A DNA stretch of 22,875 bases from a virus. The notes under the pieces were generated by a model. The model had not been told where the DNA came from and made no database searches. It saw nothing but the letters and a program-made list of their open reading frames with translations. The stretch spans positions 1-22,875 of the IMG/VR virus record IMGVR_UViG_3300005581_000145, one strand, 5' to 3'. Position numbers and translations under genes: made by a program. Positions 1 through 22,331 of the stretch are shown here, piece by piece. Every line of letters begins with the position of its first letter. The first letter of the stretch is position 1.

Positions 1-663
1 TACTACCCGCCAGCTGGGTCGACGTATCGAGAGCTCGTTGTCGACCAAGGTTTTCCGGGGCCTGGGCATCATTGGAAGATGTATCAGCGGCTCAAGGAGC
101 GGTGTCTTCGCCAGGCCCGTGCTCAGATTGTCTCGAACCCGCGAAAAGAACGGGTCGTCTTCCTTGCCGGCCGTCGTCGAACCGAGTCGGCCCGTCGAGC
201 CAACGTCCCGGAGCTGAATCGAGAAGGATCAGTCGTTTGGGTCTCGCCGCTCGTTAACTGGACGAAGACTGACCTCTACACCTACCGTGACTGGGCGGGC
301 GATGTACCGCGTAACCGAGTATCGGATCTGATTCATATGTCCGGCGAGTGCCTCTGTGGGGCCTTTGCGCACAAGGATGAACTGGCCGAGGTCGAGATGT
401 TCTTCCCGGACGTTGCTGCTCAAATCCGGGAACTCGAAGTCGAGGTCGCTGCCGCCGGACATCCGGCGAAGATCTGCAAGTGGGGCTGGGGAGCGACGGA
501 GAAGCTGACGCCCGAAGACATGAAGTCAGGCCCGCTTTGCTCGAGTTGCGAGTACCGACAAGAAGTCACGGAAAGCGAAGCTCCACGCCAGAAGTTCCCC
601 ATATACAACGTTGCGCGTTTTTACGATTGGGACATACCCCCCTTTGACGGTAACCAACAGTAA
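1..663 (+). CDS. PAPS reductase/adenine-nucleotide alpha-hydrolase family protein, 5'-truncated
   Basis: The frame is open from base 1 to the TAA at 661-663 (220 codons), so the true start lies upstream of the window; the ATG at 79 is internal. Family features seen: GPGHHWKMYQRLKER near codons 20-34, a basic GRRRTESARR stretch (about codons 57-66), and two C-terminal cysteine pairs, GECLCGAF and PLCSSCEYR. Phage members of this family resemble PAPS reductases and DndC-like sulfur-handling proteins. Whether this one acts in sulfate reduction, sulfur transfer to DNA or RNA, or elsewhere cannot be told, because the N-terminal nucleotide-binding P-loop is outside the window. There is no start-associated sequence nearby, and the gene carries two copies of the AGTCACG heptamer (286 and 564). 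The family call is confident; the reaction is not known. Confidence 0.8.
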   Translation, partial: YYPPAGSTYRELVVDQGFPGPGHHWKMYQRLKERCLRQARAQIVSNPRKERVVFLAGRRRTESARRANVPELNREGSVVWVSPLVNWTKTDLYTYRDWAGDVPRNRVSDLIHMSGECLCGAFAHKDELAEVEMFFPDVAAQIRELEVEVAAAGHPAKICKWGWGATEKLTPEDMKSGPLCSSCEYRQEVTESEAPRQKFPIYNVARFYDWDIPPFDGNQQ

Positions 664-680
664 AAGTCCGGGCAACAGAA

Positions 681-720
681 AGGCCCACGGCCGGCGGATT
701 TCTCCGTCTTCCGTGGGCCT
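681..720. terminator. Strong hairpin between convergent genes
   Basis: Perfect 10-bp inverted repeat AGGCCCACGG (681-690) / CCGTGGGCCT (711-720), with a small inner cgga/tccg stem. There is no clear T-run on either side, as is common for terminators of high-GC Gram-positives. It lies 18 bases after the PAPS-reductase stop and could serve both strands. Confidence 0.75.
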
Positions 721-770
721 CGCCGCGTTGTGTTGGTTATGGCTCGGGCCTATTGACCCGACCTGACGAT

Positions 771-800
771 GTTTCCACACCGCCGCCATCGGTGTCAAAC
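771..800 (-). terminator. Hairpin at the 3' end of the 153-aa gene
   Basis: GTTT..ACACCG (771-782) pairs with CGGTGT..AAAC (790-800), with a small internal loop. It overlaps the stop codon (795-797) of the minus-strand gene and probably ends the 1724-795 transcript. The T-run is weak. Confidence 0.5.
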
Positions 801-1256
801 CGGATTGAAAAGTCCCGGCATGATCGTCGACCACGGGTGGAAGGTATCGGACTGAATGTCCCGTTTGTCGTTCTCCCACATGTTGCCCGTCTCCACGACT
901 CGGGTGACGAGAAGGCCCTCAGTCGTCATGACATAGGCGTACGAGGCGTATGAGTACCAACCGCAGTCGTGGGTATACCACGAGTTCTCGTCGGTTAGAT
1001 CCTCGTCTTCGTGAAACGTTCCGTAGCCCTTGACTGAGTTAGGAGCGTCGTCTTCGTAGAACGGGTCAATGAACGACCACGACTGATGATCGGCCGTCAG
1101 GGTCTTGACGACCTTGTCGTAGCCGTCTCGCTCGACCAGGATGGCAAGAACGCCGACCATCCGTTCGGGATAGTTATCCCAATGGGAGTAGCTTCCACGC
1201 CACCCCTCGGCGATTGTGTCGTTGTTGGCGACTGCGATGATCCCTCTAGTTGCCAT
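795..1256 (-). CDS. Conserved phage hypothetical protein, 153 aa
   Basis: Starts ATG at 1256, two bases after the stop of the upstream gene (1259-1261), so it is probably translationally coupled. The protein begins MATRGIIAVAN and has a SHWDNYPE segment (about residues 24-31) and a Tyr/Trp-rich middle (WYTHDCGWYSYASY). The general style (MATR..IAV...GS...HWD.YP) resembles a hypothetical family common in phages of Actinobacteria; I know no function for it. It is soluble with no signal peptide or membrane segment. It is the last gene of a three-gene minus-strand unit driven from the promoter at 1761-1789, with a hairpin over its stop codon. Confidence 0.85.
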   Translation of the reverse strand: MATRGIIAVANNDTIAEGWRGSYSHWDNYPERMVGVLAILVERDGYDKVVKTLTADHQSWSFIDPFYEDDAPNSVKGYGTFHEDEDLTDENSWYTHDCGWYSYASYAYVMTTEGLLVTRVVETGNMWENDKRDIQSDTFHPWSTIMPGLFNPV

Positions 1257-1258
1257 AA

Positions 1259-1471
1259 TCAGTTACCTGCTTCGGCGAGAGTGACGGCCTGACGACTTGC
1301 GAGCATTACCTCGCAGTTGGAGATCAGTTCACTTGGTGAACCGCCGATCTCACGACAGATGGCTTCAATCCTGTCGGTCGCCGCAAAGCCTTGGGCCTTG
1401 TTGTATTCGCCGGCGAGTAGAAACAAACCTAGTTCTACCGCTTCCTTGCTGAGTTGTTCAATCTTGTTCAT
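1259..1471 (-). CDS. Small helical hypothetical protein, 70 aa
   Basis: ATG at 1471, preceded at 1475-1486 by a perfect start-associated sequence (ACCAAGGAGGTC on the coding strand), which fixes the start. The protein is short and mostly helical (MNKIEQLSKEAVELG, then a polar helix with two cysteines). I recognise no family. The 55-base gap to the upstream gene holds no obvious promoter, so it is probably co-transcribed with the 65-aa gene upstream and the 153-aa gene downstream. Confidence 0.8.
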   Translation of the reverse strand: MNKIEQLSKEAVELGLFLLAGEYNKAQGFAATDRIEAICREIGGSPSELISNCEVMLASRQAVTLAEAGN

Positions 1472-1526
1472 GGTGACCTCCTTGGTCGGTGTTGGTTGTG
1501 TCGAATCCCCGAGTGATCAGTTCCCG

Positions 1527-1724
1527 TTAGCAGACGAGATACTCGGTCTTGCTGAGGAGATCCTGAGCGAGGATGTAGCCCTCGTTGAGTGCGTTCCAGA
1601 GGAGCTGCTTCGTCTCCTTGGGCGTTTCCTTGGGAAGACCCTCAACGGCGTCGTAAGCCTCTCTCATGAGCGCCCACATCGCCTCGGCGTGTTCCCTGTC
1701 TTTCATCGTGTAGTTGATTTCCAT
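1527..1724 (-). CDS. Small hypothetical protein, 65 aa
   Basis: Start chosen at ATG 1724, because ACCAAGGAGGTC lies at 1728-1739 on the coding strand. A longer in-frame reading would run through the promoter and is rejected. The protein (MEINYTMKDREHAEAMW..) is acidic and helical with a Lys/Glu/Thr-rich middle and ends LVC. No family is recognised. First gene of the minus-strand unit 1724-795, with its own promoter at 1761-1789. Confidence 0.82.
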   Translation of the reverse strand: MEINYTMKDREHAEAMWALMREAYDAVEGLPKETPKETKQLLWNALNEGYILAQDLLSKTEYLVC

Positions 1725-1760
1725 AGTGACCTCCTTGGTCGTTATTCCTTGACAAAAAGA

Positions 1761-1789
1761 ATCGTACTCCCATTGACGATGGTTGTCAA
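1761..1789 (-). promoter_or_regulatory. Sigma-70-type promoter for the 65-aa gene
   Basis: On the minus strand TTGACA (1789-1784), 17-bp spacer, TACGAT (1766-1761), followed by the conserved TGTCAAGGAA tag. Unlike most promoters here, its spacer lacks the CACACCC element. It is divergent from the promoter at 1845-1873. Confidence 0.8.
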
Positions 1790-1800
1790 CCCCAAATGTC

Positions 1801-1818
1801 AAATAATCCCGATTATTT
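1801..1818. repeat. Inverted repeat between divergent promoters
   Basis: AAATAATC-CC-GATTATTT is a perfect 8-bp inverted repeat with a 2-bp centre, placed between two divergent -35 boxes (1784-1789 and 1845-1850). Candidate operator or UP-like element. Confidence 0.6.
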
Positions 1819-1844
1819 TTTCCGGGATTTCTTTGGGGAAATGT

Positions 1845-1873
1845 TTGACTTTGTCACACCCTTTTGGTACGAT
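1845..1873 (+). promoter_or_regulatory. Class I promoter for the 139-aa gene
   Basis: TTGACT (1845-1850), 17-bp spacer containing TCACACCC, TACGAT (1868-1873). The TGTCAAGGAGA tag follows at the predicted transcript start. Confidence 0.85.
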
Positions 1874-1918
1874 GATTTTTGTCAAGGAGATACCGAGACA
1901 ATGACCAAGGAGGTCGCC

Positions 1919-2338
1919 ATGGGAACAAAGCACATGACAGACAAAATGCAAGAAGCTTGGGACAACGTTGAGGAAGCGGTTGAAGACGCTCACCTGGTGG
2001 CCTTCGATGGCTGTCACAAGATCTACCTGGCCATGGATGAGGTTGAAGCCAAGTGGTTCGCTGAGAACTACAACGGCACCAACTGCGACGACCGAACATT
2101 CCGCGGCACTCCCGAGGAAATGCTCGCCATGGTTGAAGAGTGGTACAACGAGTCTTGCGCATTGAAGTTCGTACAAGCCGTCAGCCACAACGAGGAGAAC
2201 CCAAACGCAGGGTATATCAGCCTCGTTGATCAAGGTCTTGAAGACGAGAACGATCCTTGCGAAGACTGCGGTTACTCAGACTGCTCAGGCGGATGCGACG
2301 ACGACGATGAAGCCGAAGAAGACGACGACGACGAGTGA
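1919..2338 (+). CDS. Conserved phage protein with DGCHKIYLAMDE motif and acidic tail (paralogue A)
   Basis: Start chosen at ATG 1919, just after ACCAAGGAGGTC (1904-1915). An in-frame ATG at 1902 would translate the ribosome-binding site and is unlikely. 139 aa. A conserved core at about residues 25-105 includes FDGCHKIYLAMDE, NYNG..CDDRT, EW..ESC.L.FV.AV and NPNAGY.SL. It is followed by a Cys cluster (CEDCGYSDCSGGC) and a run of Asp/Glu to the end. It is a clear paralogue of the 145-aa protein at 17482-17919: about 50 of 81 core positions match by eye. The DGCHKIY core recurs in phage hypothetical proteins; its function is unknown. The Cys cluster may bind metal and is absent from the paralogue. 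Confidence 0.88.
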   Translation: MGTKHMTDKMQEAWDNVEEAVEDAHLVAFDGCHKIYLAMDEVEAKWFAENYNGTNCDDRTFRGTPEEMLAMVEEWYNESCALKFVQAVSHNEENPNAGYISLVDQGLEDENDPCEDCGYSDCSGGCDDDDEAEEDDDDE

Positions 2339-2343
2339 AAGGT

Positions 2344-2375
2344 GCGCACACTCTGCGGGCCAACGATCGTTCTAC
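2344..2375 (+). promoter_or_regulatory. Class II promoter-like element for the 120-aa gene
   Basis: GCGCACAC (2344-2351), exactly 12 bases, then CGATCGTTCTAC (2364-2375). One of eight copies with the same 12-base gap, all placed 5' of a start-associated sequence. Confidence 0.7.
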
Positions 2376-2404
2376 AACTACAACAACGACCAAGGAGGTC
2401 ACCT

Positions 2405-2767
2405 ATGAATGAAAACGAAGCAATAGACAAGATCATGTCCACGGCACTCACGATGAGCGAGGTCATCGCTCTGTGGGCCGGAGCAGACGACGAAGAGATC
2501 GCCGAGTTCGACCTCGGCGACAAAGCCAAGAACCGACTCGCCATCAAGGCGGCCCACAAGGTCCGAGACTCAGTCATCAAGGGCAACTACGACGACTTCA
2601 TGTTCGGCATCACCTCGCTCTGCTACGCCGGAGTATTCGGCGACGGCAGAGACAAGTGGAAGCTTCTCCCCATGGCTGCCGAGATGTCGTGGCGCATGGC
2701 CCGAGACTCATTCAAGGAAGAACTCGCCGATGTGGTTGAACGACTCATTGACGAGGTTCAGTCATGA
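2405..2767 (+). CDS. Helical hypothetical protein, 120 aa
   Basis: ATG at 2405 follows ACCAAGGAGGTC at 2389-2400. The protein (MNENEAIDKIMSTALTMSEV..) is helical and acidic, with no motif I recognise. It is the first gene of a two-gene unit behind the class II element at 2344-2375. Its stop overlaps the next start as ATGA at 2764-2767, so the two are probably translated together. Confidence 0.85.
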   Translation: MNENEAIDKIMSTALTMSEVIALWAGADDEEIAEFDLGDKAKNRLAIKAAHKVRDSVIKGNYDDFMFGITSLCYAGVFGDGRDKWKLLPMAAEMSWRMARDSFKEELADVVERLIDEVQS

Positions 2768-3012
2768 AGTGCTCGTGCGGCGAGGACGTCGAACTCAGGC
2801 CCACCGGAACCGTCGGTTTCTCCCACTACAAGAAGGTCGCCAGGGGTGACACGATCCTGGAGTGGGTTCTGACATCAACGCCAGAGGGAGCGGTCAATGA
2901 CCCTCAGTACAGTTATTGCTCTGGCACCAAGCTTCGACACAATGTGCGCGGGGTGATGGCCGAGTACCGCCGACGCGGGGTCGTGGTCTTCCGGCAGAGG
3001 CGTGGCCACTAG
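2764..3012 (+). CDS. Small protein with N-terminal CSCG, 82 aa
   Basis: Starts in a 4-base ATGA overlap with the upstream gene; GAGG about ten bases upstream could assist. It begins MKCSCGEDVEL (C3 and C5), has one later Cys, and ends basic (RRRGVVVFRQRRGH), which suggests nucleic-acid contact, but this is only an inference. No family recognised. Its stop lies beside the left copy of a 24-bp repeat (3010-3033). Confidence 0.75.
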   Translation: MKCSCGEDVELRPTGTVGFSHYKKVARGDTILEWVLTSTPEGAVNDPQYSYCSGTKLRHNVRGVMAEYRRRGVVVFRQRRGH

Positions 3013-3033
3013 CGCCTGAAGCGCCAGTCACGC
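3010..3033. repeat. Direct repeat, left copy, flanking the membrane-protein gene
   Basis: 24 bp matching 3699-3722 at 22 of 24 positions. On the minus strand the right copy encodes the C-terminal residues RDWHFRR of the 88-aa gene; this copy would read RDWRFRR followed by a stop. It therefore looks like a copied 3' end of that gene. It contains AGTCACG (3026-3032). Confidence 0.8.
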
Positions 3034-3039
3034 ATGGGT

Positions 3040-3666: not shown

Positions 3667-3697
3667 CAGCTGGCCTCTCGATATGCGCGAGTGTGTT

Positions 3698-3964
3698 TTA
3701 GCGCCTGAAATGCCAGTCACGCTCGTACTTGAGCGGCGAGTACTCACCCTCCGGCGAACTGAGATACTTCAACCATTCCCGGATCGCCTCTTCGGCGACC
3801 CAACAGCCATTCCACGTGAAGCAGTACTCAACGAAGCGTCTTGAAAACTCGACCCACTCCCGGCATCGGGGCCGCAGCAGGAAAGCTCCGGTGCAGTACC
3901 AGTCGATTTCCCGCTCAAATAGTTCTTCTTGGTCTTCATAGTTCATGTCAGTCACGCTACTCAT
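3698..3964 (-). CDS. Hypothetical protein, 88 aa
   Basis: ATG at 3964 with AGGA seven bases upstream; no start-associated sequence. The protein is rich in aromatic and charged residues (DWYCTGAFLLRPRCREWVEF, then YCFTWNGCWVAEEAIREWL) and carries five Cys in total. No family recognised. Its last codons (RDWHFRR) lie in the right copy of the 24-bp repeat. No promoter is evident, so it may depend on read-through past the terminator at 4014-4046. Confidence 0.72.
   Translation of the reverse strand: MSSVTDMNYEDQEELFEREIDWYCTGAFLLRPRCREWVEFSRRFVEYCFTWNGCWVAEEAIREWLKYLSSPEGEYSPLKYERDWHFRR
3699..3722. repeat. Direct repeat, right copy, flanking the membrane-protein gene
   Basis: 24 bp matching 3010-3033 with two adjacent mismatches. 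It is the 3' end, including the stop codon, of the 88-aa gene, so this is the likely parental copy. It contains AGTCACG (3715-3721). Confidence 0.8.
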
Positions 3965-4013
3965 AAGTGATCCTGCGTGACCGTTTGTCAGAGAAACCTC
4001 ACACCGGATACAA

Positions 4014-5598: not shown

Positions 5599-7599
5599 TT
5601 AGTCGCCGACCATCCCCATCAGGAGGTCGGCGACGACGGAGCCGGAACGACCCGAGTCCTCGCCGCCGTCGGTCGCTGACTTGACGACGCTCCTTTTCGA
5701 CTCGACGAGTTCGTGGACGCGCTCGTCGATGGTGCCGGAGGCGAGGACGTGCCACGCCGTGACTGATCCTTCCTGGCCCATCCGGTGACACCGAGCGACG
5801 ACCTGATCGACATCTGCGGGCGTCCAGGGCTCTTCGACGAAGATGACGTCCTGCGACGCTGTCAGAGTGTGGCCGGTCGATGCTGCCATGATCGACAACA
5901 CGATCACTGGGGCCTTCTCGACCGAGAGCTCCTGGAAGTCACGCTTGGCTGACTCGACTTCTTCCGGCGACATCTGGCCCTGAATCTTCAAGCCGCCGAA
6001 ACGTTCGGCCAGCTCGTCGACGATGTCCCGGTGGTGGGCCGCAAGGACGACCTTTCGACCGGACTCGACCATCTCTTCGACCATTTCCTCGATTGCCGGG
6101 ATCTTCGCCTTCGCCGCCAAACGTCTCAACGCGCTGACCCGGACAAGATGCTCGTTCGCCTCAGCAGCGAACCGCGCCCGTACTGCTGCGTGACCTGCGG
6201 GTTTGCCGAGCTCTCGAGCTATCTCAGCAGCTCGATTAGCGGCGTACTCGACGATGTCTTCTTCGGCCTTCCGGTAGTCGAGCATCACCTTCGAGTCCGG
6301 CGGAACGAGCCGCACCGCTGTTTCGACCGGGGCCAGCTCCGGCATCACGTCGTTTTTCGTTCTTCTGACGTAACAAATCGACCGCAGCTTCTCGTTCAGC
6401 TCCGGGAGATTGGCGGCCCCGTCGAGATGCCATTGCCCCCAACGGTCACGGAAGGCGTTGCAGTAACGCTTGTAGAAGGCCCACCGGCCACCGAAGTCGT
6501 CGATGCGGCCCAATATCTCGAGCTGCGAAGCGTATTCAGCTGGCTTGTTCGTGATTGGAGTCCCGGTCAGGCAGAGAACCAGGCCCGGAGCTCGACGTGC
6601 GACCTTGATCGCAGCCTTCGTTCGAGCAGCGTCGTAGTTCTTCGCTGCGTGACTCTCGTCGAAGATGTAGCTGGGGAAGCCGGAGAGCAGCTCGGCGTGG
6701 GAGCTGAGGTTGGGCCACCCGACAATCACGAGGTCGATTCCGTCGAGTGATCCCGGGTCTTTCCGGCCTTGGATCACCTTCCACGTCTTACCCGGAAGCC
6801 ATTTGTCGAGTTCTCGGCCCCAGTTGAGTACAAGCGTTGCCGGACAGACCACGACCGCTGGCCACGAAGTCACGCCCTGCTGCGCTGCCGCTTCAAGGGC
6901 CACGAGCGATTGGATCGTCTTCCCGGTTCCCATGTCGTCAGCGAGGAACGCTCGCCGGGCTTCGACGACGTACTTGATGCCGGCCCGCTGGAAGTTCTTC
7001 AGCTGGCCGCCGATGCCGGGGACTTCAATGTCAGCATCAAGCGCTCTTGAAGCGTCAATCGACTCCTTCTGCCGGCGTGATGCTGCATCAGCGAGCTCTT
7101 CGACAGCTGGCTCAGCGTCGAAACCAAAACGTGCGCACAAATCTCGAACATGAGTCACGGCCGATAGCGGGGCCGAGAAGACACGGGCCTTCTTATCCCA
7201 CGTCACCCCCGGAGTTTTTCGAGCAGCTTCAGCTATCAGCTGGTCGTACCCGAACTCAATCAGCAGCTTCTTCCCGGAAATGCGCAGCCTTTTCTTCCCC
7301 GCCGTGACTCCGCCGGCCAGCGGGATCGGCAAGTTGAAAGTCATGACTTCCGGGGACACCCAGAATGAGCAGTCACGGGCGAAGGCCCGCGCTTCGGCCA
7401 GGCTCTCCATCGGAAGCCGCCAGACCCGTGCGATCTTGTCCCAGCGAGCTCCGTGCATGGCCTTCACTGTGGCCACTTGGTCAGCGTCGTAGGGGAAGTC
7501 CAGGACGAGGTGATCGTCGGCCAGGATCAACTGACTGCCCCCCGACTGTACGATCCTCGCCACGGGCCAATCGTAACGCCCGTACCGCGCAGGCGTCAA
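5599..7599 (-). CDS. SNF2-family helicase with HARP-like N-terminus (SMARCAL1-like)
   Basis: About 660 aa. Residues 15-170 hold two repeats of the form 'fpYDadqvatvKa..garWDkiaRvWrlP' (the second near YDQLIAEAARKTPGVTWDK), which resemble HARP domains of annealing helicases. The SNF2 motor follows: DMGTGKT (Walker A, 222-228), DESH box (314-317), LTGTPI (motif III), and a C-terminal half with STGHTLTASQ and QVVARCHRMGQ (about 599-609, motif VI). It probably remodels or anneals branched DNA during replication or repair. The start is uncertain: TTG 7599 gives 666 aa and GTG 7563 gives 654; neither has a good ribosome-binding site. It lacks the start-associated sequence and carries seven AGTCACG copies. 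It follows the zinc-ribbon gene by 27 bases. Confidence 0.9.
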   Translation of the reverse strand: MTPARYGRYDWPVARIVQSGGSQLILADDHLVLDFPYDADQVATVKAMHGARWDKIARVWRLPMESLAEARAFARDCSFWVSPEVMTFNLPIPLAGGVTAGKKRLRISGKKLLIEFGYDQLIAEAARKTPGVTWDKKARVFSAPLSAVTHVRDLCARFGFDAEPAVEELADAASRRQKESIDASRALDADIEVPGIGGQLKNFQRAGIKYVVEARRAFLADDMGTGKTIQSLVALEAAAQQGVTSWPAVVVCPATLVLNWGRELDKWLPGKTWKVIQGRKDPGSLDGIDLVIVGWPNLSSHAELLSGFPSYIFDESHAAKNYDAARTKAAIKVARRAPGLVLCLTGTPITNKPAEYASQLEILGRIDDFGGRWAFYKRYCNAFRDRWGQWHLDGAANLPELNEKLRSICYVRRTKNDVMPELAPVETAVRLVPPDSKVMLDYRKAEEDIVEYAANRAAEIARELGKPAGHAAVRARFAAEANEHLVRVSALRRLAAKAKIPAIEEMVEEMVESGRKVVLAAHHRDIVDELAERFGGLKIQGQMSPEEVESAKRDFQELSVEKAPVIVLSIMAASTGHTLTASQDVIFVEEPWTPADVDQVVARCHRMGQEGSVTAWHVLASGTIDERVHELVESKRSVVKSATDGGEDSGRSGSVVADLLMGMVGD
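5758..7377. repeat. Cluster of seven AGTCACG heptamers inside the helicase gene
   Basis: AGTCACG or its complement at 5758, 5937, 6648, 6868, 7153, 7303 and 7371, in both orientations. The motif falls in different frames and encodes different residues (Val-Thr, Arg-Asp, Ser-His), so it is not explained by protein sequence. See the findings. Confidence 0.7.
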
Positions 7600-9348: not shown

Positions 9349-9545
9349 AGCCGGCATCTCACACCTTCTACGTCGCCGTCAGCGTCCACACGGACGAGGC
9401 CGGCGATGTTGTTGGTTTCGACCAAGAGTGGGGCGGGTCGTATTCCGACTCCATAACCGACGATGGCGATCAGGTTGATGTGGCCGACGACAATGTTCAG
9501 GCGGCCATGGCCTTCGTTGAGACCCTGGGAGTCATAGAGCAATGA
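9345..9545 (+). CDS. Acidic hypothetical protein, 66 aa
   Basis: GTG start in a GTGA overlap with the upstream stop, so it depends on coupled translation. The protein (beginning MKPASHTFYVAVSVHTDEAG) is acidic with a beta-rich front and a short helix at the end (NVQAAMAFVETLGVIEQ). No family known. It ends in an ATGA overlap with the next gene (9542-9545). Confidence 0.75.
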   Translation: MKPASHTFYVAVSVHTDEAGDVVGFDQEWGGSYSDSITDDGDQVDVADDNVQAAMAFVETLGVIEQ

Positions 9546-9775
9546 GCGACAGCCGCTGGCCGTCACGCCACGAGGCCGACATTTGGGACGAGCTCGTCTT
9601 GGCCATTTCTCGACTTGACGACGTCATCAGCCAGTCTTCCGGGTTCCGGGGCCGTCGAAAGGCCAGGCGGCAACGCCGTGACTGGCCAGAGTTCTGGGAT
9701 GCGGTCGACGAACTGACGTCGCTGCTGACCCGGAAGCAGCCCTCGGCCTTAGAAAAGAATGGCCCTCGAACCTAG
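9542..9775 (+). CDS. Basic helical protein, 77 aa
   Basis: Starts in an ATGA overlap. Helical, with a strongly basic stretch (FRGRRKARRQRRDWPEFW) after a first helix (DIWDELVLAISRLDDVISQ). This suggests DNA or RNA contact, though that is only inferred from charge. It carries one AGTCACG site (complement at 9677-9683). Its TAG and the TAG of the convergent gene share the palindrome CTAG (9772-9775). Last gene of the 7972-9775 unit. Confidence 0.75.
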   Translation: MSDSRWPSRHEADIWDELVLAISRLDDVISQSSGFRGRRKARRQRRDWPEFWDAVDELTSLLTRKQPSALEKNGPRT

Positions 9776-10020
9776 AAAAGCTTCGGAGTGTCAGTCACGG
9801 ACTTCAACGAGCCGGCCTCGGCACACGCCCAGTGGGCATACGCAAGCGGTGGGCCTGGATTCCGAGCTGCGGTCGACCCATTCTTCATCCAGCACGTCAC
9901 ACGTTTGGCGGAGCCGGAAGCTGATGGATCAAGACCCTCGCCGCAGAACTCGCACCTATACGGGGAGTCACGGAAAAGGGCCACGGATCGAATATACGAC
10001 CCGTGGCCCTTTCTCGTCAA
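9772..10020 (-). CDS. Cys/His-rich (zinc-knuckle or HNH-like) protein, start uncertain
   Basis: The C-terminal 60 residues look genuine: YRCEFCGEGLDP (C23, C26), then a conserved-looking 'rvTcW' and 'AHWACAE' (H63, C66). The layout C-x2-C...H-x2-C is shared with phage proteins of the 'CyvCGkpLdp....rrvtGWe....C..C' kind. The start is doubtful. TTG 10020 forms a TTGA overlap with the upstream stop, like the gene at 20505. But the first 16 codons then span a perfect terminator-like hairpin (9975-10012). GTG 9984 lies within the hairpin and has no ribosome site. It may be attenuated, or a 5'-eroded gene. Function unknown. Confidence 0.6.
   Translation of the reverse strand: MTRKGHGSYIRSVALFRDSPYRCEFCGEGLDPSASGSAKRVTCWMKNGSTAARNPGPPLAYAHWACAEAGSLKSVTDTPKLF
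9975..10012 (-). terminator. 12-bp hairpin overlapping the start of the Cys/His-rich gene
   Basis: Perfect inverted repeat AAAGGGCCACGG (9975-9986) / CCGTGGCCCTTT (10001-10012) with a 14-base loop. On the minus strand it ends in CCCTTTTCC. It would stop transcription from 10853-10017 before most of the Cys/His-rich gene. Confidence 0.75.
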
Positions 10021-12483: not shown

Positions 12484-12513
12484 TGACATAAACAACGACC
12501 AAGGAGGTCAGCT

Positions 12514-13227
12514 ATGAAAACATCAGAACTACCCAAGTGCTGGAAGTACGCACAAGACGCATTGGAGTCGGGCATCGACCGTCTCCTACTTTTCGGGCCA
12601 CCAGGAACCGGCAAAACATTCGCCGGCCTGACATTCGGCAATGTCCGCAACGGAGCATGGAAGGTCAACTGCACGGAGGATATGACATCCGCCGACGTGA
12701 CCGGACACTGGCTCCCCACCGGCGACGGTGTGTGGGCTTGGCGCGACGGCGGTGCGACCAATGCACTCCGCAACGGTGGCCGGCTCATCCTGGACGAAGT
12801 TGACAAGGCATCAGGCGATGTCCTTGCGACCCTCCTCGCCGTCACCGACAGTGACGACTCAATCGCCCTTGACCACCCCGGTCTGAACGGCAACGTTGTC
12901 GCATCGGCGGGGTACAGCGTCGTCTGTACGACCAATGCCGAGGACATGGACGAACTGCCCGAAGCCCTCGTGGATCGCTTCCCCGTCCGTATCAGGATCA
13001 ACGAACCTCACCCCGACGCTCTCCTGCGTCTGTCGCCAAACTTACGCGACTACGCACGGCGTGCCGCCGACCTCGGTGAACGTCGTATCTCACTCCGTCA
13101 GTTCATGGCTTTCGACAAGTTGACCAAGTCGCTCGGCGATCAGGTCTATGCGGCCGAGATGGTATTCGGCGAGAAACTTGCTCAGGCCGTACTTGATGCG
13201 ATCGCCATTGACACGGTGATCAAGTGA
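12514..13227 (+). CDS. MoxR/CobS-like AAA+ ATPase
   Basis: ATG at 12514 after ACCAAGGAGGTC (12498-12509). 237 aa. Walker A GPPGTGKT (28-35), Walker B LILDEVD (91-97), sensor-1 TTN (139-141), and EALVDRF with a likely arginine finger (R155), all typical of AAA_5/MoxR ATPases. Family members work with VWA-domain partners as chaperone-like remodelling machines. The next gene encodes such a partner and overlaps it as GTGA, which supports a two-component complex. Phage copies are often labelled CobS because of similarity to cobaltochelatase, but cobalt insertion is not implied. The target is unknown. The C-terminal lid region is short, so the protein is compact for the family. Confidence 0.92.
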   Translation: MKTSELPKCWKYAQDALESGIDRLLLFGPPGTGKTFAGLTFGNVRNGAWKVNCTEDMTSADVTGHWLPTGDGVWAWRDGGATNALRNGGRLILDEVDKASGDVLATLLAVTDSDDSIALDHPGLNGNVVASAGYSVVCTTNAEDMDELPEALVDRFPVRIRINEPHPDALLRLSPNLRDYARRAADLGERRISLRQFMAFDKLTKSLGDQVYAAEMVFGEKLAQAVLDAIAIDTVIK

Positions 13228-14690
13228 GTACGCCGACCATAGTCATGCCCGACCTGTTGGGCCGCGATGATGCGGAACACGGGTCGTGGGATGTCAATGA
13301 GGTCTCACTCGCTCCCGGTCAGTCGTGGACGAATGTCACCGAACGCAAGATACAAGTGCCGAAGGGCGACAATGCCCTGGAGCGTTGTATTCGTGCGCAC
13401 GAGATGATGCACGCCAAGGTCTCGCCCGTTGCCGAGGACACGAGAGTGTGGCTCGCCAGGGGTCGCGCACCAATGGCCGCCTTCGTCGCTGCTGAGGAGT
13501 TCCGCGTGAACACCCTCTGCAAGCGCGCAGGCTTCGACATGGCCAGTGTCGCCGATGGTACAGAGAAGCCCGGCGGTGAGTATCTCGCCGAGAACGATCG
13601 GTGGGCCGATGCGGTCTACGCCGCGGTCGCCTCCGGTAACACAGGACGCATCACGGAGTTCCTTAAGGGCGTACGTAAGCACAAGCCTGAATGGGCCAAG
13701 ACACTCCGTACCCTCAACGACAATCTGGTCAAGTGGATCAACAACGTCCCCTCGGTCAAGCTTGCCGACACATCGGTGCATGAACTCGCAGGAGTCGCCC
13801 CTTGGGGATACTCGTATACCGAGGCCATCGCCGTCATGATCGAACAGATCGCCAACCCACCCGCACCGCCGGCCGACGATCCTCACGAGGACGACACCGA
13901 GGAGCAGGATGCCGGCGAGGCTCAGGCATCGCCCAAGAAACCTGAACCACCAAAGGCTGAGGAGATCAAGGGCATGAAGCCCTCCGATGCCGGGGCGTGG
14001 TGGGATGACCTCCGTGTCGCCCGTCTGCCGTTGACCAAGCCAGCACCAGGCGGTCTCGGTCGCAAACGAAAGGCATCCAACATCGGCACATCGCCAAGGC
14101 GGATGTCTCGGATGCTGACCGACCCTGATCGCAAGGTATTCGACACCACCAGGAAAACTGTCGGTGGCGTTGTGCTCATTGACGGTTCGGCATCCATGCA
14201 GTTCTCTCAGGAGGACATCAAGTCAATCCTTGAGTCCGCACCCGGCTGTACCGTCGCCGTGTATTGCTCCAACAGCAACGACAGAGTCAGGCCAAACCTG
14301 CTCGTCATCGCCGACAAGGGCAAGATGGTCGCCGAGATGCCCGAACGAGTTCAGGGCAACGGCGTCGATGGTCCTGCCGCGCGTTGGGCCATTGAACAAC
14401 GTCAGAGTCGCAAGGCTCCTGTCGTTTGGATCACCGATGGTCTCGTCCACGGGCCGAGCCAACGGTACAAGGACTCACAGGGCATTGAATGTGCCAAGCT
14501 CGCAATCACCAACGGCATCATTATGCGACCGAATGTTGAGTCAGCGATCACGATGCTCAAGGAACTGCGCAAGGGCAGGAAGCCAAAACGTTGGTATCCG
14601 CCGGTGTGGCGACGTTCGTGGGCTAGTGCCTATGGCAAGGAGTTGCGCACGGTGACTCTCCCCGGGGAACGCGACAAGCATTACCGCTGA
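13224..14690 (+). CDS. VWA-domain protein with HExxH motif, partner of the AAA+ ATPase (CobT-like)
   Basis: GTG start in a GTGA overlap with the ATPase gene. 488 aa in three parts. An N-terminal domain (about 1-215) carries AHEMMHAK with HExxH at 59-63, as in VWA/metallopeptidase-like proteins. A Pro/Asp/Glu/Lys-rich linker follows (about 215-250). The C-terminal VWA domain has a MIDAS motif DGSAS (320-324) and a late TDG (404-406), with conserved hydrophobic strands (GGVVLIDGSASM, APVVWITDG). The MIDAS site should bind Mg2+ and a substrate or partner; HExxH may bind zinc, but cleavage is not shown. The C-terminus is basic. Together with the MoxR ATPase it probably remodels a host or phage complex. 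A terminator follows at 14718-14750. Confidence 0.88.
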   Translation: MSTPTIVMPDLLGRDDAEHGSWDVNEVSLAPGQSWTNVTERKIQVPKGDNALERCIRAHEMMHAKVSPVAEDTRVWLARGRAPMAAFVAAEEFRVNTLCKRAGFDMASVADGTEKPGGEYLAENDRWADAVYAAVASGNTGRITEFLKGVRKHKPEWAKTLRTLNDNLVKWINNVPSVKLADTSVHELAGVAPWGYSYTEAIAVMIEQIANPPAPPADDPHEDDTEEQDAGEAQASPKKPEPPKAEEIKGMKPSDAGAWWDDLRVARLPLTKPAPGGLGRKRKASNIGTSPRRMSRMLTDPDRKVFDTTRKTVGGVVLIDGSASMQFSQEDIKSILESAPGCTVAVYCSNSNDRVRPNLLVIADKGKMVAEMPERVQGNGVDGPAARWAIEQRQSRKAPVVWITDGLVHGPSQRYKDSQGIECAKLAITNGIIMRPNVESAITMLKELRKGRKPKRWYPPVWRRSWASAYGKELRTVTLPGERDKHYR

Positions 14691-14755: not shown

Positions 14756-14962
14756 CTATTTCTTGGCCCGCTGTTGGTCGGCCACATACCTCGAGCCGGC
14801 GATAAGGAACAACACCGGGGGCATCAGGCACCAGGCAATGCCGGAGGCCTGGTCGTAACCGAGCGTGTGGGCCGTGAAGCCAACGGAGTGCAGGATGCCC
14901 ACGACGATCATCAAGGCCCACGAACACCACGAGATGAATAGAGCGAGAGTCACGGCAGGCAT
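14756..14962 (-). CDS. Two-TM small membrane protein, 68 aa
   Basis: ATG at 14962 in a TGATG overlap with the upstream stop. Two predicted membrane helices (about 4-25, TLALFISWCSWALMIVVGIL, and 40-57, SGIAWCLMPPVLFLIAG) joined by a short loop, with a basic C-terminus (DQQRAKK) that would face the cytoplasm. It is small enough to be a holin-like or regulatory membrane protein, but no lysis genes are nearby, so this is only a possibility. It contains one AGTCACG (14948-14954). Partner of the DNA-binding protein gene upstream. Confidence 0.75.
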   Translation of the reverse strand: MPAVTLALFISWCSWALMIVVGILHSVGFTAHTLGYDQASGIAWCLMPPVLFLIAGSRYVADQQRAKK

Positions 14963-15462
14963 CAGCGCGATACCTTCCGGTTCTTCGCTGCCGACATGGC
15001 GGCCCTAACCTTCTCGACGTTCAGCTTTGCGCGCTGCTTCCGGCGCTTCTCGAGGTGGGCCTCGTGCCTCGACTCTTCCGGGGCATCCGGCGCAATCTGA
15101 TGTACGCGCTGCCTCGACATCTCGAACTTGTCAGCGATCTCGGCGAGAGTCACGCCCTGAGCGCGCATCCTGCGGATCTCTTCGTTCCGTGACTCCTTGC
15201 CCTTCGGCCCCGGCAGAAGCCTGTCCCATGTCCATCCGGGGATGCGTGACAGCTCGCGGATGCGGCGTTCGTCGAGTAGGCCCTTCCGGTAGCGGGATCG
15301 AGCGTATGCCACAAACGTCCCGACGTTGGCCGTCCGGCCGTCACGCAGGCGGATCGTTGACCCCGCCGGAGCCATCGGGCTTCCGTTCTTGTCGGCCCAA
15401 GCTTTGATGCCTTCGACGTTGGTTGCCCATCGGGCGTCGTAATGGTGGCTCTCGGTTGTCAT
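14962..15462 (-). CDS. Helicase-associated-domain plus HTH DNA-binding protein
   Basis: Start chosen at ATG 15462, with AGAGGGAA about eight bases upstream; a GTG at 15477 lies in a hairpin and is less likely. 166 aa. Residues 11-82 follow the helicase-associated (HA) domain pattern (W..nv..i..wa...G.......ti...dGr..nvGtfv.y.RsrYrkG.Ld..Ri..L..IPGW.W). Residues 94-123 form a helix-turn-helix (EEIRRMRAQGVTLAEIADKF, then MSRQRVHQI). The tail is very basic. A DNA-binding regulator or accessory factor is likely; its site is unknown. No start-associated sequence; contains two AGTCACG copies (15148 and 15188). Confidence 0.85.
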   Translation of the reverse strand: MTTESHHYDARWATNVEGIKAWADKNGSPMAPAGSTIRLRDGRTANVGTFVAYARSRYRKGLLDERRIRELSRIPGWTWDRLLPGPKGKESRNEEIRRMRAQGVTLAEIADKFEMSRQRVHQIAPDAPEESRHEAHLEKRRKQRAKLNVEKVRAAMSAAKNRKVSR

Positions 15463-15474
15463 GTCGTTCCCTCT

Positions 15475-15488
15475 CACCCTTCGGGGTG
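15475..15488 (-). other. Small stable hairpin in the 5' leader of the HA/HTH gene
   Basis: CACCC-TTCG-GGGTG (plus strand), read on the transcript as CACCC-CGAA-GGGTG. It lies immediately upstream of the AGAGGG ribosome site, so it could influence translation. Confidence 0.5.
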
Positions 15489-18368: not shown

Positions 18369-18403
18369 GAATCTGTCAACGAAATAGCCCCAAGGAGGCA
18401 ACC

Positions 18404-18996: not shown

Positions 18997-19000
18997 CGAT

Positions 19001-19029: not shown

Positions 19030-19064
19030 GAATCTGTCAACAAGTTACGACCAAGGAGGTCACT

Positions 19065-19271: not shown

Positions 19272-19290
19272 CAAATAAGTCCGGGAAGTC

Positions 19291-19322
19291 GCGCACACAT
19301 TGCGCACACCCGATCGTTCTAT
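19291..19322 (+). promoter_or_regulatory. Class II promoter-like element for the 71-aa gene
   Basis: GCGCACAC (19291-19298), 12 bases, CGATCGTTCTAT (19311-19322). A second GCGCACAC lies in the gap at 19302-19309. Confidence 0.7.
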
Positions 19323-19357
19323 AAACAACAGCAACACAATGACCAAGGAGGTCTGCC

Positions 19358-19573
19358 ATGGAAACATCAGCGAAGGTAAAGGTATACAGATTCATCTACA
19401 GCCCTGACGGCAGGTGCGCCGAAATGACCAGTGGGTCATGGGCACTACAGGACACGAAGACCGGCGAGCTTCTCACGTACAACACGCTCGGCCCTGTCCG
19501 TTTCTTCTCATTGGAGAACGCCCGCGAGTGGTGCTTGGAGCAGGGACACGGGTTCCTCGATCCCGACAACTGA
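19358..19573 (+). CDS. Small paralogue ending in WCL-GHGFLDPD (copy B), 71 aa
   Basis: ATG at 19358 after ACCAAGGAGGTC (19342-19353); an out-of-frame ATG lies within the site. It starts METSAKVKVYRFIYSPDG and ends AREWCLEQGHGFLDPDN, matching the 60-aa protein at 16909-17091 at both ends. An 11-residue longer middle (SWALQDTKTGELLTYNTLG) separates them. No function known. Preceded by a class II element and followed by a hairpin (19583-19616). Confidence 0.83.
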   Translation: METSAKVKVYRFIYSPDGRCAEMTSGSWALQDTKTGELLTYNTLGPVRFFSLENAREWCLEQGHGFLDPDN

Positions 19574-19582
19574 TCGGATCCG

Positions 19583-19616
19583 GTGGCGGGGTCAAGGTAA
19601 GACTTGACTCCGTCAC
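19583..19616 (+). terminator. 14-bp hairpin that contains the next promoter's -35 box
   Basis: 19583-19596 pairs with 19603-19616 over 14 bp (two G-U pairs), loop 6 bases. The right arm carries TTGACT (19604-19609) of the following class I promoter, as at 17102-17134. Confidence 0.75.
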
Positions 19617-19632
19617 ACCCATGTAGTACAGT
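19604..19632 (+). promoter_or_regulatory. Class I promoter for the 187-aa operon
   Basis: TTGACT (19604-19609), 17-bp spacer with GTCACACCCATGTAG, TACAGT (19627-19632), then TTGTCAAGGAAA. Confidence 0.84.
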
Positions 19633-19672
19633 TATTTTTGTCAAGGAAATACAAGCCCCAAGGAGGCCGACT

Positions 19673-20236
19673 ATGAAGATCAACCACGAAACAAGAACAC
19701 TCACACTAGGCAAGACAAGTTGCCGAAACTGCCGCGAAGGTAGTGTCCCCACCAAGGTGGACTGCCCCAAGTGCCTCGGTACCGGAAACGGCCCACGAGG
19801 CGGTCGCAGGACTTGCCGTCCTTGCCACGGTTTCGGAACCAAGTACAACCAGGACGTGCGCGAGGTCTGCCCGACTTGCCACGGCGATTGGGAGTTCGCC
19901 GCAGACGAGAACATCTGCACCTACATCAACAACTCCGAATGGGTTGACTTCGTGAACTGGGATGTCCAACGATTCCACGGGATGTCGTACAACATTTGGC
20001 AGATGAATATCGGTGTCGGTGCCTCGATCTATACCTGCGTCGACTACGGGCGTGCGATGAAAGACATGAGCGACTCTGAAATCATGGAGGCGGTACTTGA
20101 GTCCATTCGGAGCACGCAGGCGATCAACGTCGTGCGTCGGGCCGACATGAAACTCTGCGATCGCGTCGTCATTGCTGTTACCGAAAACGGTTACGCACCG
20201 ATGCCCGTGTGGGATGGAAGTTGGGTGGCGGCATGA
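19673..20236 (+). CDS. DnaJ-like zinc-finger protein, 187 aa
   Basis: ATG at 19673 after CCCAAGGAGGCC (19657-19668). Residues 17-70 hold four Cys pairs: CRNC (17, 20), CPKCLGTG (31, 34), CRPCHGFG (48, 51) and CPTCHG (66, 69). This matches the four-repeat zinc region of DnaJ, with CxxCxGxG in the middle two. No J domain is present. The remaining 115 residues (a Trp/Tyr-rich region, then helices and VVIAVTENGYAPMPV) are unlike DnaJ. A zinc-dependent protein-binding role is plausible but not proven. First gene of a three-gene coupled unit. Confidence 0.85.
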   Translation: MKINHETRTLTLGKTSCRNCREGSVPTKVDCPKCLGTGNGPRGGRRTCRPCHGFGTKYNQDVREVCPTCHGDWEFAADENICTYINNSEWVDFVNWDVQRFHGMSYNIWQMNIGVGASIYTCVDYGRAMKDMSDSEIMEAVLESIRSTQAINVVRRADMKLCDRVVIAVTENGYAPMPVWDGSWVAA

Positions 20237-20508
20237 GCACACTTGAAGTCTCGATTGTCAAGAATGTGCGATTCCTTACCGAAGAACATTCGGGCGAGGG
20301 ACGTTTCCGTGCCGACATGCACACGACATCGTCGGACCGTTGGGTCATCTCGTACGAGTGGTTCTACCAATGGAGCATGGTGGACTCGAAGACCGAGGTC
20401 TTCACATCTGCTGAGGAGTGCCTCTCGTGGTTGCGTACCGCACCGTACAAATATCTGTCATCGTTCGCCCTCAGGGCGGCCGATGCGCTCGCTGAGGCAT
20501 TGCCTTGA
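20233..20508 (+). CDS. Hypothetical protein, 91 aa
   Basis: Starts at ATG 20233 in an ATGA overlap with the upstream stop. The body (STLEVSIVKNVRFLTEEHSG, then WVISYEWFYQWSMVDSKTEV) is beta-rich with many aromatics, and ends in a helix (SSFALRAADALAEALP). No family recognised. Its TGA overlaps the TTG of the next gene. Confidence 0.78.
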   Translation: MSTLEVSIVKNVRFLTEEHSGEGRFRADMHTTSSDRWVISYEWFYQWSMVDSKTEVFTSAEECLSWLRTAPYKYLSSFALRAADALAEALP

Positions 20509-20687
20509 TCGGTGCGTACATGGTCGTCCATGGCCGAATGACGGACGTCGTCTACTTCGGGCCGTTCGCAACGCTGGAGGAAACCTGGGCGTGGCTAGAT
20601 GCCCACCCTCGCGTTCAGCGAAGGATCACCCACCTCATCTCGCCGGACACGCCGGCAGAAGAAATGTGGTTCATGCCAAACGCTTGA
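20505..20687 (+). CDS. Small protein with TTG start, 60 aa
   Basis: TTG at 20505 overlaps the upstream stop as TTGA, with GAGG nearby; an ATG five codons later (20520) is the alternative. The protein (beginning MIGAYMVVHGRMTDVVYFGP) has a short beta-alpha pattern and an aromatic-rich helix (FATLEETWAWLDAHP), then ISPDTPAEEMWFMPNA. No family recognised. Its stop codon falls inside the -35 box of the next promoter. Confidence 0.7.
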   Translation: MIGAYMVVHGRMTDVVYFGPFATLEETWAWLDAHPRVQRRITHLISPDTPAEEMWFMPNA

Positions 20688-20713
20688 CAAGCACATGGAT
20701 CACGCATTACACT
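20684..20713 (+). promoter_or_regulatory. Putative promoter for the Myb-like gene
   Basis: TTGACA (20684-20689), 18-bp spacer, TACACT (20708-20713). No CACACCC dyad and no TGTCAAGGAAA tag. It overlaps the stop of the upstream gene. Confidence 0.55.
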
Positions 20714-20765
20714 CAACACATCGCGTCACACGACACGACACACATAATGACCAAGGAGGTCAGCT

Positions 20766-21215
20766 ATGAAACAACCAAGCCAAGCCCGGAAGGGCACAAA
20801 TACACGAGCACTCCTCGAAGTGATTCGCGACAACTCACTCGGCCTGATCTGGCAGGACAAGGGACTCACGCTTTCGTGGATCGCTGAAGTCGTCTTGACT
20901 CAGGCCGGTTTCACCGATGCCGAGATCGCCTCGCTCTTCGGAGGCAAGACCACACCGAAGGTCGCACCAAAGGCCACCAAGCCGGCGAAGAATACCGTGC
21001 GCCGAGTCAACAACGGACAGTCCTGGACTAGGGACGAAGACGACTCCATCGTGAAGATGTGGGCACAGGGACTCACCGCGGCGAAAATCGCCAAGGAGCT
21101 CAAGCGCACCGACGGTTCAATCAACCTGCGCGTGCATCTGCTCCGCAAGCAACGTGGCGACAAGGTCGTACAGTTGCGCCGGCCCGACACTCGTCTCCGT
21201 TTCTCGAAGAAATAA
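20766..21215 (+). CDS. Myb/SANT-like HTH DNA-binding protein, 149 aa
   Basis: ATG at 20766 after ACCAAGGAGGTC (20750-20761). Residues 10-60 form a helical domain; a basic, Pro/Lys-rich linker follows (about 61-82). Residues 86-130 (SWTRDEDDSIVKMWAQGLTA, then AKIAKELKRTDGSINLRVHLL) match the three-helix Myb/SANT-type fold used for DNA contact ('W...Ed..i..l...G.s...IA..l.Rt..si..R...L'). The basic C-terminus ends RLRFSKK. It is a good candidate for a regulator of the repeated promoters here, though no direct link is visible. A terminator (21234-21267) follows. Confidence 0.82.
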   Translation: MKQPSQARKGTNTRALLEVIRDNSLGLIWQDKGLTLSWIAEVVLTQAGFTDAEIASLFGGKTTPKVAPKATKPAKNTVRRVNNGQSWTRDEDDSIVKMWAQGLTAAKIAKELKRTDGSINLRVHLLRKQRGDKVVQLRRPDTRLRFSKK

Positions 21216-21233
21216 CTAGGGCGGGTTGCCGCG

Positions 21234-21267
21234 GGTACGGGAGGGGCGCTAGACACTCTCCCGTACC
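21234..21267 (+). terminator. Strong hairpin after the Myb-like gene
   Basis: Perfect 10-bp stem GGTACGGGAG (21234-21243) / CTCCCGTACC (21258-21267), 14-base loop. No T-run. Confidence 0.75.
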
Positions 21268-21504
21268 AACCTAGGCGCGCCGAAATGCCGAGGCTAAGCA
21301 CCGTCAACGAAGACAGGGGCCTGCTTCAAGTCGCACCAACACCCGAAACTCACCCGGAAACGATGGGGGGAGGGGGGGTGTAAGACCTTCTACCAAGTAC
21401 AAAATCTCTTACTCCTACAGAGTTTAGAGATCTCTACCAAATATCTAACTCCTACGGAGAAGAACTATGCTGCCGTTGGCCTCGCCGCGACGGAAGGGAT
21501 ACCT
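21268..21504 (+). other. Leader/regulatory region before the replication genes
   Basis: The longest gap in the window (289 bases with the terminator), with no convincing protein gene. It holds a G tract (G6-A-G7, 21365-21378), two imperfect copies of a TCTACCAA...ACTCCTAC(A/G)GAG block (21389-21422 and 21433-21459), a 12-bp palindrome TAGAGATCTCTA (21425-21436) and a CTCC-TAC-GGAG mini-hairpin (21449-21459). A 35-codon frame starts at ATG 21467. No class I or II promoter is seen. Candidate leader, operator or origin sequence. Confidence 0.55.
21425..21436. repeat. 12-bp palindrome in the leader region
   Basis: TAGAGATCTCTA is its own reverse complement, lying between the two copies of the ACTCCTAC(A/G)GAG block. 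Possible operator. Confidence 0.55.
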
Positions 21505-21864
21505 ATGTCTGAAAATGAAACACCCAACAACCCCACGACCCCGGAGATCAACGAAGTCTTTGACCTTTGGATAGAACTCCTACGGCCTGGTTCGCACGTA
21601 AAGCCGAGGCTCGACACCAAACGCACCACGCTCATCAAGCGGGCCGTCCGGGACTACGGTGCCGAGACATGCAAGGACGCCGTGCGCGGTTGCTCAGTCT
21701 CCGAGTTCCACCTAGGGAAGAACCCACGGGGCAAGGTCTACACGGACATCGAGCTAATCCTTCGGGATAGCCGACACATTGAACAGTTCGCTACCGCGTG
21801 GCACGAGCATCTTGAATCCGACGGTCAAGCAACGAGTGCGGCCCGCGAAGGCGATGCCTGGTGA
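21505..21864 (+). CDS. Putative phage replication protein, 119 aa
   Basis: ATG at 21505 with GGAAGGGAT upstream; no start-associated sequence. The pattern EVFDLWIELL.PG..VK..LD.KR..LI.rAv.dYG.e.c.dAv.G...S.fHlG.N..GkvY.DIELILRD..HIE.Fa is familiar from phage genes placed next to helicase loaders and primases, where it is described as a helical replication or replisome-organiser-like protein. The residues N-terminal to it are disordered (ETPNNPTTPE). First gene of a GTGA-coupled chain with the next two, which supports a replication role. The exact function is inferred. Confidence 0.75.
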   Translation: MSENETPNNPTTPEINEVFDLWIELLRPGSHVKPRLDTKRTTLIKRAVRDYGAETCKDAVRGCSVSEFHLGKNPRGKVYTDIELILRDSRHIEQFATAWHEHLESDGQATSAAREGDAW

Positions 21865-22331
21865 ACCGTACGGAGCTGGTCAGGCTCGTCGACATCTACC
21901 GCGCCGCTTGGCCAACCCGTGACTCTTCGGATCGTCAGGAGGCCGCCGCGATGCGGACCTGGTGGCGTTACCTCCAGGATCTTGATTATGCCGATGTCGT
22001 CAAGGAGCTTGACTCCCACGTCGTCCGGGGCGGCTGGCCACCACGGGTCGGTGAACTTCGCCGAGCTGTTGTTCTTAAAGGCGAGAAGTTTGAGACGCCG
22101 GCCGAAGCCTGGGCATCGGTCCAGGAACGCTTGCGGGCCGTCGAGACCGGGACGGAATGGAATGAGCTGTCTGTTGAAGCTGCGTCAGCGATGCGCCGAG
22201 CCGGCATGGACGGAAGGTCACGCCCGGACGAGAAGTCGTTCAAGGCCGCCTTCGAGGAACTGTGTATTGAACGCGACGAGATGATCCTCGAAGTCGTCGA
22301 CCCCGAACCATTTGGAGAAGTGCCTAAGTGA
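21861..22331 (+). CDS. Putative helicase loader-like replication protein, 156 aa
   Basis: GTG start at 21861 in a GTGA overlap. The first 75 residues (TELVRLVDIYRAAWPTRDSS, then WWRYLQDLDYADVVKELDSH, then GGWPPRVGELR) follow the pattern of phage helicase-loader-like proteins ('...i...yp.......W...L.d.dy..v..a....v....fpPrvgelr'). The rest is helical and acidic. Such proteins load the replicative helicase at the fork. The match is by pattern only, so the call is tentative. It contains one AGTCACG (complement at 21918-21924). It overlaps the primase gene as GTGA (22328-22331). Confidence 0.68.
   Translation: MNRTELVRLVDIYRAAWPTRDSSDRQEAAAMRTWWRYLQDLDYADVVKELDSHVVRGGWPPRVGELRRAVVLKGEKFETPAEAWASVQERLRAVETGTEWNELSVEAASAMRRAGMDGRSRPDEKSFKAAFEELCIERDEMILEVVDPEPFGEVPK

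Follow-up and report, generated by a model that had tools for sequence, protein, structure and literature searches.

A lineage-specific DNA word dispersed through one class of early genes in uncultured actinophages

Introduction

Several described systems rely on short DNA words that recur within a genome. The c1 operators of phage P1 are scattered binding sites of its master repressor, matS of Escherichia coli is a 13-base palindrome found in a macrodomain, and Chi, KOPS and DNA uptake sequences are genome-wide, some of them with a strand bias. The stoperators of cluster A mycobacteriophages, which are the sites of the L5 repressor, are 13 bases long, lie mostly in short intergenic gaps in one orientation with respect to transcription and are inactive when reversed (PMC9283540, PMC6550527), and the SPBRE of Bacillus phage SPbeta (MrpR) is a 15-base motif of promoter regions (PMC10516654). 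Here we describe the word AGTCACG, and its fuller form RGTCACGS (R, A or G; S, G or C), in the IMG/VR virus record IMGVR_UViG_3300005581_000145, which was analysed over its complete length of 22,875 bases (the window), and in its relatives. A literature search for phage motifs scattered inside genes turned up nothing similar.

The window is a piece of an actinophage genome, from a group of uncultured viruses infecting actinobacteria. Through its SNF2 protein we reached a 130,481-base contig of a near-identical phage (G001), to which it aligns in reverse from 112.6 to 90.4 kb with 94–98% identity over most of its length, a stretch at 93–96 kb being more variable. Another contig (G012) crosses the ends of G001, so the G001 genome is circularly complete, and a chimeric assembly is ruled out by two relatives (G008 and G010) that span the junction of late and early genes. 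All sequences compared are uncultured, apart from the control, Arthrobacter phage Pointis; G000, G001 and G008 are close kin and not independent, and gene calls come from a simple in-house scorer. Cultured phages hold no near match to the window and no relative of a conserved 488-residue protein that it encodes. Bacterial genomes searched with the primase yielded only a contig of a Pirellula metagenome-assembled genome and one weak match, and host inference by this route was abandoned.

Results

The original prediction, made from the letters of the window, counted 19 copies of AGTCACG, all of which we find in their places. The excess holds, although the expectation of about three given with it was slightly low (dinucleotide shuffles yield 5.0 ± 2.4, maximum 12). 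The base 3' of the word, said to be G or C in nearly all copies, is so in 19 of 19, and no window copy falls in a gene led by the start-associated sequence (SAS), in line with the proposed confinement to genes that lack it. Counted as GTCACGS, the window has 27 sites. Across G001, 41 of the 42 copies of AGTCACG lie inside 88,203–123,853 (about 36 kb), the sole copy outside this early region being AGTCACGT, and of the 5,360 7-mers tested for being restricted to some region, wherever in the genome, the word ranks first. GTCACGS occurs 54 times in 88–124 kb and not once in the other 93–94 kb or so, and the cultured control Pointis has no comparably confined word. The observation is thus confirmed, and is stronger than first stated.

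The genes of G001 form three classes: late genes, small early genes led by an SAS, and early genes without one. The last class comprises the primase, helicase loader, replication-O-like, SSB, SNF2, PAPS reductase, WhiB and DUF932 genes, together with those of three helix-turn-helix (HTH) proteins and a queuosine-precursor-type transporter. The SAS of the small early genes is CAAGGAGG, and upstream of these genes stands a promoter-like TTGACT-N17-CATGAT or GCGCACAC...GATCGTT. Tagged genes are interspersed with site-free ones at a scale of about 500 bases. When codons were shuffled synonymously, with protein and codon counts held per gene, the non-SAS early genes of G001 proved to contain 44 GTCACGS where 12.1 ± 3.0 are expected, the late genes none against 20.2 ± 4.0 and the SAS genes none against 4.2 ± 1.8; 44 of the 54 sites fall in assigned open reading frames (ORFs). 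For AGTCACGS the non-SAS early genes have 33 against 4.0 ± 1.8, so that the prediction withstood the codon-matched shuffle named with it as its refuting test, and the excess is 3.6-fold for GTCACGS and 8-fold for AGTCACGS.

These numbers bear on whether the word is a by-product of composition, codon usage or a foreign origin of the non-SAS genes, a reading to which the depletion of TCGA, CCGG, GGCC and AGCT in late and SAS genes, and not in non-SAS genes, lends some colour. Codon usage as the cause is ruled out by the shuffles; the excess survives them within genes, the sites are evenly spaced and conserved above control words, and the class split is also found in a relative with a GC content of 69%. 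We regard a by-product as largely refuted and very improbable.

The extent of the word was read from the pooled early non-SAS genes of G001 and two relatives (G009 and G010). The base before GTCACGS is A in 41 cases (5.3 expected) and G in 16 (5.1 expected), the base after GTCACG is G or C in 29 and 28 cases (about 5 expected) and A or T in one each, and none of the single-base variants of the core is enriched in this pool. The preferences on either side and the lack of enriched variants define the real word as RGTCACGS, with all-or-none specificity, and GGTCACGS copies belong to it too; in a further relative (L125) the first position is filled by other bases. RGTCACGS is asymmetric and non-palindromic, and within 60 bases of the sites we find neither a conserved partner nor a matS-like palindrome. 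A promoter or terminator element was rejected for want of such a partner and with a hairpin partner at just 7 of 41 sites.

Orientation and frame are hardly constrained: 25 sites are sense and 19 antisense, and all but one of the six combinations of frame and strand are used. Spacing is regular, with 45 gaps averaging 298 bases, a density somewhat inflated because the non-SAS segments were drawn around known site-bearing genes, and with a coefficient of variation of 0.62 against 1.03 ± 0.13 under a null that preserves the site count per segment; none of 5,000 random placements was as even.

A search in related phages, also proposed at the outset, shows both the word and its gene-class split recurring in G008, G009 (GC 69%, about 74% nucleotide identity) and G010, the SAS genes of G009 and G010 again being without sites. 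The non-SAS genes have 13 sites in G009 (5.9 ± 1.9 expected) and 12 in G010 (3.9 ± 1.8 expected). The same split, judged by site position, appears in L125, with six GTCACGS in the gene of an HA-domain and HTH protein (HA/HTH), one in the next 7 kb and more in the loader and primase genes. We compared site conservation with that of control words of the same letters at aligned positions, with P values that treat sites as independent. Between the window and G001 all 27 sites are kept against 82% of control words (P = 0.004); in G009, 9 of 15 against 29% (P = 0.012); and in G010, 5 of 7 against 18% (P = 0.003). For G008, the 11 of 14 sites kept do not differ significantly from the 69% of control words. 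In the primase gene the number of sites is retained while their positions turn over between relatives. In the HA/HTH gene, three of the four window positions are common to G008 and two to G009, a third being strand-flipped there; at one Val-Thr pair of this gene, both G001 and G009 carry the site on opposite strands, which shows that position is kept rather than orientation.

RGTCACGS is thereby shown to be a lineage-specific, strand-independent signal at the DNA level, favoured by selection in the non-SAS early genes and selected against outside them, with no part played by protein or codon effects. The suggestion that the signal resides in the DNA and not in the protein is borne out by the synonymous shuffles, by sites on either strand and in several reading frames, by their regular spacing and by their conservation in relatives. 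The interpretation given with the prediction is partly supported; its three candidate functions, a modification or restriction-related site, the site of a genome-organising protein and a replication or recombination signal, are weighed below.

One way to account for such a signal is a site at which an enzyme encoded by the phage or its host (a nuclease, a nickase or one that modifies DNA) would mark, nick or cut the non-SAS early genes; in late and cassette genes such a site would be harmful. The exactness of the word, with no tolerated mismatch, and its total absence from about 94 kb suit an enzyme, as does the presence in G001 of genes for a cytosine methyltransferase and, side by side, for the queuosine-precursor-type transporter and a putatively DpdA-like protein; AATT, moreover, is missing from the whole of G001 (0 against about 187 expected), a sign of restriction pressure. 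Host restriction, however, predicts avoidance throughout, whereas the word is enriched and conserved in one gene class among site-free genes and uses both strands without pattern. Nor is it depleted genome-wide, as a restriction-avoidance word would be, being enriched in non-SAS genes, and we rejected a plain avoided restriction site, which would leave the word's enrichment and conservation in a single class of genes unaccounted for. An enzyme site is, in our estimate, unlikely.

Several observations touch on these enzymes and on the SAS cassettes. AATT is also absent from related stretches (L113–L117), and its absence was noted for G001 (L029–L035), G008, G013 and G014, which suggests that host or phage has a nuclease directed at AATT. 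The transporter adjoins a 224-residue protein (phrog_15826; L034:16267–17443, corresponding to G001 116,267–117,443) that we presume, on our own reading, to be DpdA-like, family and PDB support for this not having been found; 7-deazaguanine DNA modification by the pair is possible. G001 further encodes a ParB-like protein and, next to it, a second PAPS reductase (36,833–39,744), which we take to be an IbrB/IbrA-like pair, a tryptophan halogenase (69,883–71,370) and a split cytosine methyltransferase (24–27 kb). In its late and SAS genes TCGA, ACGT, AGCT and other palindromes are depleted beyond codon usage, and in its non-SAS early genes they are not: palindromes are avoided by gene class inside one genome, which DNA restriction alone does not explain. 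Upstream of SAS genes, for example at 1906, 5158 and 7792 in the window (read from their G001 equivalents), stands either the promoter-like TTGACT-17-CATGAT, the spacer of which holds a CACACCC.TGTG inverted repeat, or a second type, GCGCACACTTTGCGC...GATCGTT; the SAS cassettes have two operator-like promoter families.

Along the window, the partial gene of the PAPS-reductase family (1..663, plus strand) carries two AGTCACGG sites, at 286..292 (minus) and 564..570 (plus). Three plus-strand AGTCACGC sites follow at 3026..3032, 3715..3721 and 3950..3956, the last with a GTCACGC in opposition at 3975–3981. The SNF2-family helicase gene (5599..7599, minus) has nine: AGTCACGG at 5758..5764 (minus), 7153..7159 (plus), 7303..7309 (minus) and 7371..7377 (plus); AGTCACGC at 5937..5943 (plus), 6648..6654 (minus) and 6868..6874 (plus); GTCACGC at 6188..6194 (minus), the G001 equivalent of which is GGTCACGC; and GTCACGG at 6445..6451 (plus), equivalent to GGTCACGG in G001. 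Further AGTCACGG sites lie at 9677..9683 (minus) in a small non-SAS gene (9542–9775), at 9793..9799 and 9966..9972 (both plus) in a non-SAS ORF (9772–10020), and at 14948..14954 (plus) at the start of a small membrane gene behind the HA/HTH gene. The helicase-loader-like gene (21861..22331, plus) has two sites, AGTCACGG at 21918..21924 (minus) and GTCACGC at 22217..22223 (plus), and the partial DNA primase/helicase gene (22328..22873, plus) has a GTCACGC at 22626..22632 (plus); both GTCACGC sites are GGTCACGC in G001. An example of a site-free, SAS-led unit is that of an AAA ATPase and the 488-residue protein (12500..14690, plus).

A 689-base segment of the window has no counterpart in G001 and is bounded by a 24-base direct repeat (3010–3033 and 3699–3722) that contains AGTCACGC; the site at 3026..3032 lies in the first copy, at the segment's edge, and that at 3715..3721 in the other. 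This would fit a word, similar to Chi or an uptake sequence, that directs the swapping or repair of core early genes when phages co-infect, and density and strand-independence are also like those of uptake sequences. Chi and uptake words, however, are genome-wide where here some 94 kb are empty, and this is the one breakpoint, among several between the window and G001, that coincides with a site. A role in recombination or transfer seems to us decidedly improbable.

The densest cluster of sites, in every member of the clade, is in the HA/HTH gene (14962..15477, minus), which has three to six sites in about 500 bases in six genomes; in the window it holds four GTCACGS within 15148..15346, at 15149 (plus), 15187 (minus), 15244 (minus) and 15340 (plus). 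Its product, with an HA domain and a sigma4/resolvase-like HTH, is a candidate for the cognate protein, and the AlphaFold model (pLDDT 80) weakly resembles the HTH domains of resolvase and RcsB. Such a cluster may also be viewed as the core of a regional organiser or replication signal, its sites loading a protein similar to MatP on matS or to an initiator on iterons; the lambda O gene, for one, carries its origin iterons. Confinement to one region with even spacing, a hyper-dense cluster in the gene of one DNA-binding protein in all clade members, and primase, loader and SSB genes among those tagged would all agree with this. Yet a regional mechanism has no need for the cassette genes of the same region to be site-free, and the flanks of the sites form no matS-like palindrome. 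We hold a regional organiser or replication signal to be doubtful.

More distant relatives keep homologues of the HA/HTH, sigma4-like HTH, loader and primase proteins and show no excess of RGTCACGS. An unsupervised search of their orthologous genes in L127, L128, L129 and L130 gives AGCCCCG as the top 7-mer (20 against 2.8), found in each of the four contigs and with G or C next in 17 of 20 copies; AGCCCCGS is a sister word of RGTCACGS. AGCCCCG also commonly serves as a terminator stem among these phages; for this reason contigs whose copies are intergenic and hairpin-forming were set aside, and AGCCCCG or AGTCCCG in L147, L044 and L041, mostly in intergenic terminator hairpins, was excluded from the count. 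In G015 the early genes sit in the final 15 kb, and all 17 copies, part of which are of the terminator-stem type, fall there; the late genes have none (8.0 ± 2.5 expected). G003, which is related through SNF2 (56%), SSB and other proteins, has all 37 copies before 28.6 kb, ahead of the late-gene homologues; in its SNF2 gene, too, AGCCCCG ranks first among 7-mers (4 against 0.33). Coding copies in L002 and L025, which are one phage (99.99%) and counted once, number 13 against 2.2 ± 1.2 and 17 against 3.8 ± 1.3, with few hairpins. The signal has apparently been rewritten between lineages. AGTCCCG in G016 is possibly a third lineage word (the first 32 kb has 29 copies, mostly outside gene calls, and the other 85 kb has 4), and CGCGCGC is likewise confined there; the latter is also enriched in the L131/132/138/141 group, and avoidance of CGCG elsewhere may account for it. 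In Pointis (L184, L185), CCGTGACG is enriched alike in early and late genes (16 against 3.3 and 16 against 4.4).

Discussion

We infer that a trans-acting reader of the word exists. Our preferred reading, held tentatively and at somewhat less than even confidence, is that RGTCACGS forms the recognition sites of a phage DNA-binding protein, perhaps the HA/HTH protein, that silences or organises the tagged genes. A sequence-specific protein would read the word and act on the bodies of early and replication genes that lack an SAS; it would be phage-encoded. The HA/HTH protein would be the likeliest such reader, being the best candidate by position: its gene has the densest cluster and is retained in phages with another word. 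Bound at regular intervals, this protein might serve as a roadblock or nucleation point, keeping the tagged genes quiet outside a time window, while cassette genes, with their own promoter and SAS, and late genes would need transcription in its presence and so would have lost all sites. The purging of the word from cassette and late genes makes it likelier that the bound protein would impede gene activity there than promote it, and for this reason a roadblock or silencing is our first choice.

Several points weigh against this proposal. The HA/HTH fold has no significant match in the PDB and the protein is a positional candidate only; it was not found on G003, a partial contig, and the genes of two further HTH proteins lie near its own. 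The best-known dispersed silencer sites, the L5 stoperators, are mostly intergenic and inactive when reversed, whereas the sites here are intragenic and strand-independent, and exact, all-or-none specificity is equally expected of an enzyme site. A tyrosine integrase was looked for and none found, so lysogenic silencing is not indicated.

In broader terms, we think it possible, if still short of probable, that these phages carry a gene-class tag: a 7–8-base word of the lineage's own, written with synonymous codons about 300 bases apart into nearly every core early gene without a cassette promoter. It may be set on any strand and in any frame and erased elsewhere, with a phage protein acting on the whole class, a part of the proposal that we hold with the same reserve. 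If true, viral protein-coding DNA would here offer a strong example of a superimposed regulatory or marking code, the reach of which is set by gene class instead of promoter or region and the word of which changes from one lineage to another. Such a code would point to a novel mechanism of sequence reading, with one viral gene set handled apart from the others, and the most regionally confined k-mers offer a simple probe for how frequent hidden tags are across phage genomes.

Compared with known systems, RGTCACGS most recalls the cluster A stoperators in its many short asymmetric sites, its lineage-specific word variants and, in the candidate HA/HTH protein, a small phage HTH reader. It differs in being 8 bases long, mostly intragenic, in both orientations and confined to one gene class, and the HA/HTH protein has a different domain make-up from the cluster A repressor. 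SPBRE and the P1 c1 operators are similar in being scattered over a phage genome, as targets of a master repressor; SPBRE, however, lies in promoter regions and RGTCACGS inside coding sequence. With matS and MatP it shares confinement to one part of a replicon, but it is asymmetric and specific to a gene class at a 500-base scale. Chi, KOPS and uptake sequences are similarly short exact words placed in coding sequence by synonymous choice, whereas the genome-wide spread of Chi and uptake sequences contrasts with 93 kb that hold no GTCACGS. Finally, the small genes of the window carry an SAS-like CAAGGAGG apparently resembling the SAS of cluster K mycobacteriophages (PMC3203893); the SAS stands at translation starts, whereas RGTCACGS marks the complementary set of genes.

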